In this document: positions 4,132 through 28,468 of the stretch, one piece after another
How positions within the stretch are numbered: the first letter of the stretch is position 1
Layout: each line of letters starts with the position of its first letter
Assembly (NCBI GenBank): GCA_947311825.1
Contig: CAMZLY010000199.1
Location: forward strand, 1-34,235
DNA: 34,235 nucleotides
Reading direction: 5' to 3'
Origin: an uncultured bacterium
Lineage (GTDB): Bacteria > Verrucomicrobiota > Kiritimatiellia > UBA8416 > CAMZLY01
Position numbers and translations under genes: made by a program
Notes under the pieces: model-generated
Databases searched by the model: none
The model's input: the letters and a program-made list of their open reading frames with translations, nothing else
Told to the model about the DNA's origin: nothing

Positions 4132-4445
4132 ATGACATTAAATGATGAACAGATAGAACGATATTCAAGAAAATTATTCTGCAGGAAGTGGGTATTAAGG
4201 GGCAAATGAAGTTGCTTGAGAGTAGTGTTCTAATAGTCGGCGTCGGAGGTTTGGGCTCGCCTGTTGCACTATATCTTGCGGCAGCAGAGGCAATAAAATA
4301 TCTTCTTCAAATAGGGTCATTATTGACTAATACTCTTCTTGTATATGATGCACTTGATATGTCTTTCAGAAATATTGCTATTAACAAAAGCAGCGATTGT
4401 CCGCTTTGTGGTGAAAATCCTACTATTACAGAACTAAAATATTAA
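4132..4445 (+). pseudogene. Remnant of a MoeB/ThiF-family adenylyltransferase (frameshift plus internal deletion)
   Basis: The ATG at 4132 starts [14 protein letters not shown], the normal N-terminus of MoeB/ThiF/HesA E1-like enzymes. A one-base loss in the A-run near 4173 shifts the frame; restoring it gives [11 protein letters not shown], then [21 protein letters not shown] with the intact nucleotide-binding glycines. Directly after LAAA the sequence jumps to [12 protein letters not shown], then [14 protein letters not shown] and [13 protein letters not shown], which belong to the family's C-terminal third. The middle (~100-150 residues with the adenylation Arg/Lys/Asp residues and the first zinc CxxC) is missing. 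The remaining CPLC zinc pair has lost its partner, so the gene cannot make a working enzyme. Confidence 0.88.
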
Positions 4446-5625: not shown

Positions 5626-6066
5626 ATGACTGAAACAGATTGTATTTTTTGCAAGATTATTGCTGGCGAACTGCCGTCTACAAAGATATATGAGAATGAT
5701 ACTACTTTGGCATTTATGGATATAGGTCCAATAGCTAAGGGACATGTGTTGGTTGTACCTAAAAAGCATAGAGAGATGATTACCGATACCGAACCGGAGA
5801 TTTTGGCTGGTATTATGACGGTGACGAAGATGGTTTCACAAGCACAAATTGATGGGATGAATGCTGATGGGGTTAATATTACGCAGGCTAATGGAGCCGT
5901 TGCCGGGCAAGTTGTGCCGCATTTGCACTTTCATGTTATTCCACGGTTTAAAGATGATGGTGTAGATTTTAATTGGCAGGCACAAAATTATAGTGATAAT
6001 GAGGAAATGATAGAGTTTGCGGAAAAAATAAAAAAAGAATTTAGACAAAATGATTTGAAAAGATAA
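5626..6066 (+). CDS. HIT family protein (histidine triad nucleotide hydrolase)
   Basis: 146 residues with the HIT fold. The catalytic triad motif H99-L-H101-F-H103 lies in VVPHLHFHVIPR, and the N-terminal CIFCKI zinc pair (C6, C9) and LAFMDIGPIAKGHVLVVPKKH are typical of the HinT/Hit branch, which hydrolyses purine nucleoside phosphoramidates or Ap4A-like compounds. The start has AGGA about nine bases upstream. The last residues (QNDLKR) are encoded by the first unit of the tandem array at 6044-6296, so either the C-terminus was extended by the repeat or the array grew from the gene's 3' end. The domain itself ends well before this point. Confidence 0.93.
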   Translation: MTETDCIFCKIIAGELPSTKIYENDTTLAFMDIGPIAKGHVLVVPKKHREMITDTEPEILAGIMTVTKMVSQAQIDGMNADGVNITQANGAVAGQVVPHLHFHVIPRFKDDGVDFNWQAQNYSDNEEMIEFAEKIKKEFRQNDLKR

Positions 6067-6296
6067 GTCTCGACAAAATGATGGTCGACAAAATGATTTG
6101 AAAAGATAAGTCTCGACAAAATGATTTGAAAGATAAGTCCGACAAAATGATGGTCGACAAAATGATTTGAAAAGATAAGTCTCGACAAAATGATGGTCGA
6201 CAAAATGATTTGAAAAGATAAGTCTCGACAAAATGATGGTCGACAAAATGATTTGAAAGATAAGTCCGACAAAATGATGGTCGACAAAATGATTTG
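6044..6296. repeat. Tandem array of alternating 28-bp and 15-bp units (seven A, five B)
   Basis: Every unit begins GACAAAATGAT. A units continue TTGAAAAGATAAGTCTC (28 bp), or the 26-bp variant TTGAAAGATAAGTCC; B units continue GGTC (15 bp). The order is A(6044) B(6072) A(6087) A'(6115) B(6141) A(6156) B(6184) A(6199) B(6227) A'(6242) B(6268) and a partial A(6283-6296). The usual higher-order period is 43 bp, or 41 with A'. The array overlaps the HIT gene's last codons and ends 30 bp before the ATG of the Minf_1886 gene. Minus-strand reading frames through it (repeating FCRPSFC-like peptides) are artefacts of the repetition. Confidence 0.93.
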
Positions 6297-21400: not shown

Positions 21401-21697
21401 ATGATGAAGTGTGGCCTAGAATGGTTCTTTCGCCTTTGTGCTGAACAATTTGTAGGGCAGCAGTTACGGTGTATCCCTCGTGCACTTGAAGAGCCAAGAC
21501 TATTCTACTGGCAACGAACAAATGGATGCCAAGGAGAAATTGACTATATCATTCAAAATGGAATGCGTATTGTTCCTATTGAGGTCAAAGCACCGTTGTG
21601 CGGGGAAGTAAAACGATCCTCTGGACCGTTATTTTGTGTCAGCACTGCTCTATTGACATTACCACTGATAAATGAGAACTTAATACAAGTAAATTAA
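21401..21697 (+). pseudogene. DUF4143-domain (ATPase C-terminal) remnant carrying a dispersed repeat
   Basis: EWFFRLCAEQFVGQQL, then RALEEPRLFYWQRTNG and GEIDYIIQNGMRIVPIEVKA match the C-terminal DUF4143 domain of AAA ATPases of the DUF4143 type (PD-(D/E)XK-like tail: E-I-D...E-V-K). The ~300-residue ATPase part is absent; the 5' DNA is AT-rich EPS leader. Directly after IEVKA the DNA changes into a 40-bp repeat (21589-21628) also found upstream of the hydrogenase operon (29558-29597), then resumes with a hydrophobic end. I read it as a broken gene. Its stop is 15 bp before cysD. Confidence 0.8.
21589..21628 (+). repeat. ~40-bp dispersed repeat, copy 1
   Basis: It matches 29558-29597 at 32 of 40 positions. 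The best-conserved core is GCACCGTTGT-R-CGGGGA, followed by a GTAAA and a TCTGG block. This copy lies inside the DUF4143 remnant. Confidence 0.7.
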
Positions 21698-24834: not shown

Positions 24835-25491
24835 TTATATTTCTATCAGTTCAATTTTATCATCAGTAACTCGGACAGAAGATAGTGGCGATTCTGTCCA
24901 GGCTCCGGTGTTTAGGTAGCGGATACCATTAACTGTTTTGTCCTCCACAAAATGAGTATGTCCGCATGTTACAGCTTTATAACCATTTTGCTTGGCGTAT
25001 TTTATTGCCTTTTTTCTTACGTGTCGGGTTAATACTTCATAGAGGTGTGGAAATTTTTTCGCATAATGTGCAACGTGTACAGTTTCTAGACCTAATAGCT
25101 TTATACGTAAATTATGTAGCATCTTAAAAATTATTATGAATCCTTTATGTGATGGCATAACTTTATCAAAATTATGACCATGTGCGATAAATAATAGTTT
25201 ATCTATATTGTATGAGTTGACAAATTTAATGTTTGAGTCGCCCTCCAATTCGTATTTGCCATCATGGTTACCGCGTACCCAGACAATTTTTCGCTTATAT
25301 GACTCAGCTTTTAATCGTTCCAATGCTTCTAGGTTAATGCCAGCCAGATCCCGATGCCAGTGGTCAACAACATCTCCGTTCATAATTAAGGTAGCCTCTG
25401 CCGGAAGGTTCTCCAGAAATTTTATAAAGTTCGCTGCACGGCTGTGCGGAGACCCTAAATGTATATCGCTTATTATGTAAAAAGTCTTCAG
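24835..25491 (-). CDS. LpxH-like calcineurin-type metallophosphoesterase (start codon apparently CTG)
   Basis: Read from a CTG at 25491 the protein has 218 residues: LKTFYIISDIHLGSPHSRA, then NLPAEATLIMNGDVVDHW. All metal-binding motifs of the family are present: D9-I-H11, G39-D-x-x-D43, G74-N-H-D77 and G177-H-T-H180, plus IAHGHNFD. The first ATG (25383) would remove the DxH motif, so the true start must lie upstream, yet there is no ATG, GTG or TTG between the in-frame TGA at about 25497 and the DxH codons. The CTG stands exactly where ATG is expected (ATGAAGACT), and the bases before it are heptad repeats. The family hydrolyses UDP-2,3-diacylglucosamine (lipid A) or other phosphoesters. Either CTG is used or the gene has lost its start. 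Confidence 0.8.
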   Translation of the reverse strand: MKTFYIISDIHLGSPHSRAANFIKFLENLPAEATLIMNGDVVDHWHRDLAGINLEALERLKAESYKRKIVWVRGNHDGKYELEGDSNIKFVNSYNIDKLLFIAHGHNFDKVMPSHKGFIIIFKMLHNLRIKLLGLETVHVAHYAKKFPHLYEVLTRHVRKKAIKYAKQNGYKAVTCGHTHFVEDKTVNGIRYLNTGAWTESPLSSVRVTDDKIELIEI

Positions 25492-25512
25492 TTGTCAGTC
25501 CTCAGTTTTCAG
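25485..25512. repeat. Four heptad repeats filling the O-antigen ligase/metallophosphoesterase junction
   Basis: TCTTCAG, TTGTCAG, TCCTCAG and TTTTCAG (25485-25512, on the plus strand). On the coding (minus) strand these read CTGAAAA CTGAGGA, CTGACAA CTGAAGA. They fill almost the whole gap between the ligase stop (25518) and the first codons of the metallophosphoesterase. The last unit supplies the CTG that replaces the expected ATG. Confidence 0.8.
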
Positions 25513-25517
25513 TTTGT

Positions 25518-26924
25518 TTATCTGTGGTCATAATTATCATTTCGGGTGATTGGCAAAGTGATAATCGTCGCTAATATCCAAACCGTTGCCGGCATTTGCA
25601 AGTTGAAGTCACCCAGTGAATGAAAGCCCATACAGATACAAGCCAAAAGCCCGGCAAAGGATGCCGCATATAATGGTGGATATTCTACGCGGTGACTTGT
25701 CTTAGTTTCATCCGGCAACTCTTTTCTTAATACGTTAAACCACAACATGAAAGGAGTTAAAAATAAGATGAAGCCAATAATGCCATATTCTTCAAGGAGT
25801 TGTAGCCAATCATTATGTACTTCGTAAGAGTGAAAATAGTGATTCGTCATTGATGGCCAAATATTCTTTTCTCGGTCTCCATCATCCGTTGCCGCAAAGT
25901 GAAACCAGAGGTTTTCGTGCATACCTGCACCGATTCCCACTACGGGGCTGCTTTTCCACGCACGGACGGCTCCGCCGTACATTCTACCACGCGAAGTGCG
26001 ACTAAGTTGCTTCATTATAGCATCTTTTTTCTCTACCAAAGACGTTTTCTGTTTATGTTCATGTCCAAAGTAGTTTTTAAATCTTTTTATATAGGCGATA
26101 TCTGATAGCCAAATAGAGGCGAGTAAAGCTAGTCCAACCAAAATAACTGCTCCTCGTAAATACCAACGGACAATTTTTGGTAATTGTGTGCCGCCCCATA
26201 TCACAACGGCCAGTCCGATTATCATTAAAGTTAGCCCAGCACCTCTGGATTTGCTTAATAAAATTGCTGTTACGGTAGTAATACTCATTAATATTCCGGC
26301 AATCCGCCATTTACCACTAGACCGTAAATCTAGTAGTAAGGGAATGGCCATACATAAGCCCAGTTCCATAACGCCGGCAAAATGATCCGGGCAGAAGTAG
26401 GAACCGGTTGCACGGTGGTCTTTATAATACTGTTCATATCCGGGGGCCCACATCACAAGCTCGTTACCGGTAATAAAATGGTTTATGATGCCGTATAGAC
26501 CAAGTATGAGAACATCAAAGAATAATAGCACCCACAGCAAGCGTCGCTGCTTATTGGTTAATCCAAAAATAATATTTAGGCCAACTAATAATGGTGTCAG
26601 GTAAAGCAGAAAACTTCGTTCGGCACTCATAAAAACTTCTGCTTGCATAAACCGTATTACTACATATATCAAAAACAGACAAAATGAAAGTAAGGTAAGA
26701 CCAATACCGCTGAAAAAAGAAAAAGTATTAATTTTTTCTTTGGTATGTTTTTGGATGAGTAAGAGTAAGGCGAAAAAGAAAGTGGAGGCAAATATTATTG
26801 TTGTAAATGGCCAGAACCACCACATTTCCCAAGCTCCAAAGAACCAGGGAGAAACCACGATAGCAATTAATAATAGGCTAAAGCTAATCCATCCTAATGT
26901 TTTATCAATTATTTTTGTCGTCAT
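25518..26924 (-). CDS. O-antigen ligase family protein
   Basis: 468 residues with about 11-12 transmembrane helices. Conserved family spots are LLSKSRGAGLTLMI (the S-x-S-R-G-A motif), a periplasmic loop with RAWKSSPVVGIGAGMHENLW, and YEVHNDWLQLLEEYGIIGFIL, the H-N-D-x-L-x-x-x-x-x-x-G ligase signature. It probably transfers lipid-linked glycan to an acceptor, or polymerises it, on the outer face of the membrane. It is the second such gene here (the other is at 8708-10186) and matches the classical ligase pattern better. It lies upstream of the metallophosphoesterase in the same direction, separated by four heptad repeats. The ribosome-binding site is weak. Confidence 0.87.
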   Translation of the reverse strand: MTTKIIDKTLGWISFSLLLIAIVVSPWFFGAWEMWWFWPFTTIIFASTFFFALLLLIQKHTKEKINTFSFFSGIGLTLLSFCLFLIYVVIRFMQAEVFMSAERSFLLYLTPLLVGLNIIFGLTNKQRRLLWVLLFFDVLILGLYGIINHFITGNELVMWAPGYEQYYKDHRATGSYFCPDHFAGVMELGLCMAIPLLLDLRSSGKWRIAGILMSITTVTAILLSKSRGAGLTLMIIGLAVVIWGGTQLPKIVRWYLRGAVILVGLALLASIWLSDIAYIKRFKNYFGHEHKQKTSLVEKKDAIMKQLSRTSRGRMYGGAVRAWKSSPVVGIGAGMHENLWFHFAATDDGDREKNIWPSMTNHYFHSYEVHNDWLQLLEEYGIIGFILFLTPFMLWFNVLRKELPDETKTSHRVEYPPLYAASFAGLLACICMGFHSLGDFNLQMPATVWILATIITLPITRNDNYDHR

Positions 26925-26980: not shown

Positions 26981-27086
26981 GGATGAAGGGGGTGTTGTCC
27001 ACAGATTACGCAGGTGTACGCAGATGTACGCAGATTATAAAGGTTGATCTATAAGGATAGAGGTGTTGCCACGTATGTTTACGAAT
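26981..27086. repeat. ~105-bp repeat, copy 1 (left of purM)
   Basis: It aligns with 28364-28468 on the same strand. Shared blocks: GGATGAAGGGG, GTTGTCC-x-CAGATTACGCAG with nested ACGCAGAT units, GTTGATCTA, AAGGATAGAGGTGTTG and CACG. No gene is seen in the surrounding 26925-27194 apart from a CTTCGTGCTT element at 27138. Confidence 0.85.
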
Positions 27087-28363: not shown

Positions 28364-28468
28364 GGATGAAGGGGATGTTGTCCGCAGATTACGCAGATTA
28401 CGCAGATTAAAAATGTTGATCTACACAAGGATAGAGGTGTTGTCACGAATGCACGGATTTACACGAAT
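28364..28468. repeat. ~105-bp repeat, copy 2 (right of purM)
   Basis: The counterpart of 26981-27086 in the same orientation. It contains the nested run GATTACGCAGATTACGCAG, then GTTGATCTA, AAGGATAGAGGTGTTG and CACGAATG. Confidence 0.85.

Follow-up and report, generated by a model that had tools for sequence, protein, structure and literature searches.

The window analyzed here, a whole contig of 34,235 nt from a MAG (G000; 2.50 Mb, 214 contigs, 88% complete), carries on the minus strand an open reading frame (ORF) for a calcineurin-like phosphoesterase in which no canonical start codon precedes the first metal motif. Read from a CTG codon, the ORF spans 24835..25491 and encodes 218 aa plus stop (PF00149, E=1.6e-13; PF12850, E=3.3e-12). 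The PF00149 match exceeds the cut-off, and the metal motifs DxH, GD, GNH, H, and GHxH of the family are all present. Positions D9, H11, G39, D40, G74, N75, H104, G177, H178, and H180 are invariant in the alignment, and H76 is conserved, with N in its place in a few orthologues. The residues of motif I (D9-x-H11, 25459..25467, minus strand, and G13), which precedes the first canonical in-frame ATG, are invariant among 20 aligned orthologues. The gene is present in a single copy, and a protein search found no close relative of it among the 6 other PF00149 places in the genome. The co-directional gene upstream encodes an O-antigen ligase (Wzy_C; 25518..26924, minus strand; PF04932, E=1.1e-15), the TAA stop of which is followed by ACAAACTGAAAACTGAGGACTGACAACTGAAGACTTTTTAC and lies 26 nt from the CTG. 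A relative of the ligase gene adjoins the phosphoesterase gene in G001, a genome of the same genus, and in 39 other fetched loci (40 of 107, the loci partly overlapping), which may point to a role of the phosphoesterase in surface polysaccharide or lipid metabolism.

The beginning of the ORF is embedded in an array of 4 heptads of a degenerate NNACTGA/TAACTGA type (25483..25512, minus strand), namely, CTGAAAA (25512-25506), CTGAGGA (25505-25499), CTGACAA (25498-25492), and CTGAAGA (25491-25485), followed by CT. The 4 units lie at 25485..25512 exactly as described in the initial annotation, and both the CTG (25489..25491) and an in-frame TGA stop 2 codons upstream of it (25495..25497) fall within them. 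On the coding strand, CTGAAGACT occupies 25491-25483; translation across the TGA reads D*QLKTFYIISDIHLG, and the frame encoding KTFYIISDIHLG opens directly after this stop. The codons preceding the metal motif are CAA CTG AAG ACT TTT TAC ATA ATA AGC, and the interval from the TGA to the metal Asp lacks ATG, GTG, and TTG, in agreement with the same annotation. The first in-frame canonical start is an ATG at 25381..25383, 36 codons into the ORF and beyond D9, H11, and G13, which would yield a 182-aa protein. The claim that all metal motifs require an upstream start holds for motif I but not for the others, all of which lie after this ATG, so that a start there would cost motif I only. A gene caller limited to ATG, GTG, and TTG would annotate the truncated start, with the first metal motif missing.

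To place this region in the context of the family, we compared 91 distinct orthologous places, counting identical stretches once (a few records occurred in both the genome and the contig searches) and omitting 3 places (2 with the motif DLHM and 1 partial). A canonical in-frame start, taken as any ATG, GTG, or TTG in the stretch from the preceding in-frame stop to the metal Asp, precedes the motif in 90 of the 91; the sole exception is the gene in G000. The criterion is a lenient one, because for a few of the 90 the closest such codon sits just 2 to 5 codons ahead of the Asp. The modal start lies 7 codons before the metal Asp (50/91; 41 ATG and 9 GTG). This position maps not to the CTG at 25491, where the initial annotation had expected an ATG, but 1 codon downstream, to AAG (25486..25488, minus strand).

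The orthologue in G001 (locus L013) encodes a protein approximately 75% identical and is likewise located downstream of the ligase gene. Comparison of the junction in a close relative had been proposed at the outset, and the G000 and G001 sequences (GACAACTGAAGACTTTTTACATAATAAGCGAT and GATAACTAATGATTTCTATACTAGTAAGCGAT, respectively) align without gaps, with the matching segments GACAACTGAAGACT and GATAACTAATGATT placing an ATG within a recognizable heptad (ACTAATG) of G001 opposite the AAG of G000. Because the homologous block aligns ungapped and carries the ATG, the heptad-like block is, judging from this alignment, an old feature common to both genomes, and substitution in the start-bearing heptad is a likelier cause of the start loss than fresh spread of repeats. 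We infer the direction of change, from ATG to AAG, mainly from the modal start of the wider family, with only one close relative to compare. The gap upstream of the G001 gene is approximately 100 bases longer and contains TCATCCTGCCAATCCTGTCCATCCATGTAAAT, which resembles another dispersed repeat.

The second heptad contains a Shine-Dalgarno (SD)-like GAGG (25500..25503, minus strand), 8 nt before the CTG. Its predicted duplex for a CTG start is −5.9 kcal/mol, calculated with an anti-SD sequence that was assumed rather than taken from the 16S 3′ end, and approximately 32% of 66 sampled starts in the genome pair as strongly or more so. The GAGG suits the AAG position equally well (−6.4 kcal/mol) and may have been inherited from an old start there. 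The leader is no more structured than its shuffles (z 0.84). We also considered other starts. Those at ATA 25476 or 25473 have poor SD pairing (−1.0 kcal/mol), and the ATG at 25383 has fair pairing (−5.8 kcal/mol), yet motif I would be lost. Recoding of the TGA or a start farther upstream was rejected as well, there being no in-frame ATG, GTG, or TTG back to a TAA near 25539, and the frame of the ligase gene being different.

TAACTGA direct repeats are known from Beggiatoaceae, Cyanobacteria, and Bacteroidetes (MacGregor 2015, PMC4679880); in one genome, most of them are in forward orientation immediately before start codons, and a role in translational regulation has been proposed. The heptads of the genus studied here are of this known type. 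Their 7-bp unit, ACTGATA, is a rotation of TAACTGA, and they share with the published repeats the arrangement in few-copy sets split by related heptamers, the mostly intergenic and forward placement ending a few nucleotides before starts, and stops in 3 frames. They differ in their host, a genus of the PVC group (Kiritimatiellota-like), in the degenerate unit (NNACTGA) at the phosphoesterase gene, and in that several loci of the genus have the start codon inside a heptad, with AAG at this position in the phosphoesterase gene. Furthermore, a GAGG is present in the phosphoesterase array, in contrast to most repeat-led genes of the earlier study, which are without an SD sequence. That paper mentions neither Kiritimatiellae nor Lentisphaerae, and the passages of it consulted here do not describe a start codon inside a repeat unit.

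Within the window, CTGANNACTGANNACTGA occurs in 4 copies with at most 2 mismatches, against 0.17 expected, and the genome holds 11 exact matches to the repeat pattern ACTGANNACTGANNACTGA but none to its reversed control. A looser heptad pattern was not enriched over its reversed control, and evidence for the repeat family is taken from the tighter pattern only. Exact triple TAACTGA repeats are found in 3 of 146 genomes and occur elsewhere in G000; the array at the phosphoesterase gene has no exact TAACTGA unit and is at most a diverged member of the family. Among 24 arrays in the fetched stretches of G000 and G001, 16 end between −15 and +25 nt from a start on the same strand, whereas non-coding 17-mers taken from these stretches would do so in 9.4% of cases (p about 1e-11). 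With ORFs called mechanically and the arrays themselves guiding which stretches were fetched, this p value is indicative. Most arrays in the other class members examined lie away from starts, and we claim start-adjacent placement for the genus only. An ATG lies inside a heptad unit on G000 contig C10 and on its G001 homologue on C90, as well as on G001 C6 and C201. On C201 (locus L096, 2699-2722), the ATG and first codons (MTNN) of a glycosyltransferase gene are themselves heptad sequence, and this ATG sits exactly at the start conserved among relatives of the order; in G000, a contig end truncates the corresponding gene, leaving no start to compare. Antisense heptads on G000 C69 (14486-14504; L083) hold an ORF open, adding residues like SVISYQ, an extension of the kind described for reverse TAACTGA repeats (MacGregor 2015).

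The phosphoesterase itself looks constrained and intact, as far as comparative analysis can tell. Between G000 and G001, pN is 0.143 and pS is 0.74 (saturated), with a pN/pS ratio of 0.19, and the reading frame is full-length, without internal stops or frameshifts. The aligned orthologues agree to at least 90% at 42 sites, and at none of these does the G000 protein depart alone; the same is true of G001. The full-length frame and the absence of lone departures show that decay has not begun, although a very young loss, too, would leave exactly this picture.

Tentatively, and with chances that we put close to even, we interpret the locus as an intact gene that lost its start codon within a heptad and is now weakly initiated at the CTG 1 codon upstream. 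The start would formerly have lain within a TAACTGA-type array in the unit form ACT[G/A]ATGACT, which sets a CTG or CTA codon and an ATG adjacent in frame. In G000, the heptad reads ACTGAAGACT, which would leave AAG at the conserved start position, and the in-frame CTG would then most likely serve as a low-rate start, aided by the GAGG of the neighboring heptad and the weakly structured leader and possibly also by ribosomes finishing the ligase gene 26 nt upstream. As in known cases of non-canonical CUG starts in bacteria, the only plausible start of the ORF is a CTG, preceded at 8 nt by the SD-like GAGG; all other examined orthologues have a canonical start, so that this would not be a conserved regulatory CUG start. 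Both the use of the CTG and the resulting amount of protein are our inference. This interpretation is weakened by the poor performance of CUG as a bacterial start, cited in PMC11497404 as giving 0.86% of AUG output and accounting for 0.024% of bacterial starts, by the degenerate array together with the lack of enrichment of the looser heptad pattern, by the equally good fit of the GAGG to the AAG position, and by the fact that a recent loss of the start, as an isolated event, would give the same appearance.

Such a loss, in which substitution of the start codon has left an incipient pseudogene with negligible expression, is a serious, if less probable, alternative; CTG initiation and inactivation were the 2 readings put forward in the initial annotation, and both are still live. 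The missing start is the sole lesion, and CUG normally performs at about 1% of the level of AUG (PMC11497404). Loss of the gene may also be tolerated, considering that an orthologue was found in 41 of the 95 relatives searched and not found in the remainder, over half of them, and the window holds further gene remnants, a short piece of ThiF (4188-4445) and a piece of DUF4143 (21401-21697). Against recent inactivation stand the GAGG and the in-frame CTG, both in place, as well as the lack of additional lesions, relaxed constraint, or excess change at conserved sites, although a very young loss would show none of these yet. Of the 2 fragments, the ThiF-family ORF (85 aa, plus strand) has only 2 short matched stretches and is probably a ThiF/MoeB-like remnant, and the other (98 aa, plus strand), which matches only the end of DUF4143, is probably what is left of a DUF4143 ATPase gene.

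Rather improbable, in our estimate, is an error in the consensus or assembly of the MAG, with a true start that is canonical: one base is decisive, the MAG is fragmented, and repeats invite misassembly, but a short array (approximately 30 bp) of non-identical units should assemble readily, and the flanking ORFs are intact. These weights, about one half for CTG use, one third for recent inactivation, and one eighth for a consensus error, are judgements and were not computed. Very unlikely is the original proposal that freshly spreading heptads overwrote an ancestral ATGAAGACT start with its ATG at 25491, since, even though CTGAAGACT and ATGAAGACT are one base apart and one orthologue (L028) starts at the 25491 column, the homologous heptad-like block of the nearest relative has its ATG 1 codon further on, ungapped, most orthologues start at the codon after the CTG, and ATGs within heptads recur in the genus.

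Returning to weak initiation at the CTG, a broader version of this interpretation, which we regard as unlikely, would be that heptads of the genus constitute an initiation region that includes the start codon and tolerates non-canonical starts, so that the CTG keeps the gene under selection in the absence of ATG, GTG, or TTG. The occurrence of TAACTGA heptads with starts inside their units in a PVC-group genus provides pairs of homologous genes whose start codons differ through changes in the repeats, and such pairs make the proposed role of the heptads in translation initiation testable.

The gene had been described as LpxH-like, and the enzyme indeed belongs to the PF00149 fold family together with LpxH and YfcE, with the motifs DxH, GD, GNHD, HG, and GHTH, and its profile matches include YfcE and the solved UDP-2,3-diacylglucosamine hydrolase 5k8k (E=2e-5). 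It differs in finding no NCBIfam match above the curated cut-offs (yfcE, 40.2 versus 56.25 bits) and, by the family tests available, is not LpxH. A check for another lpxH in the genome, also suggested at the outset, returned nothing for TIGR01854 (lipid_A_lpxH), which did recover the Escherichia coli positive control. The genome encodes LpxI_C (E=4.7e-47), and LpxH is therefore probably dispensable.

The window contains several other repeats. A long tandem array between 2 genes (6044-6296; units of approximately 28 and 43 bases, CGACAAAATGATTTGAAAAGATAAGTC) has the TTG start of the next ORF (6294) at its end, and a perfect 34-base tandem repeat of 4.2 copies occupies the contig end (1-142). 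Short tandem repeats are located in gaps near a purM-like gene, at 27002-27035 (10-mer CAGATGTACG) and 28383-28409 (9-mer CGCAGATTA).
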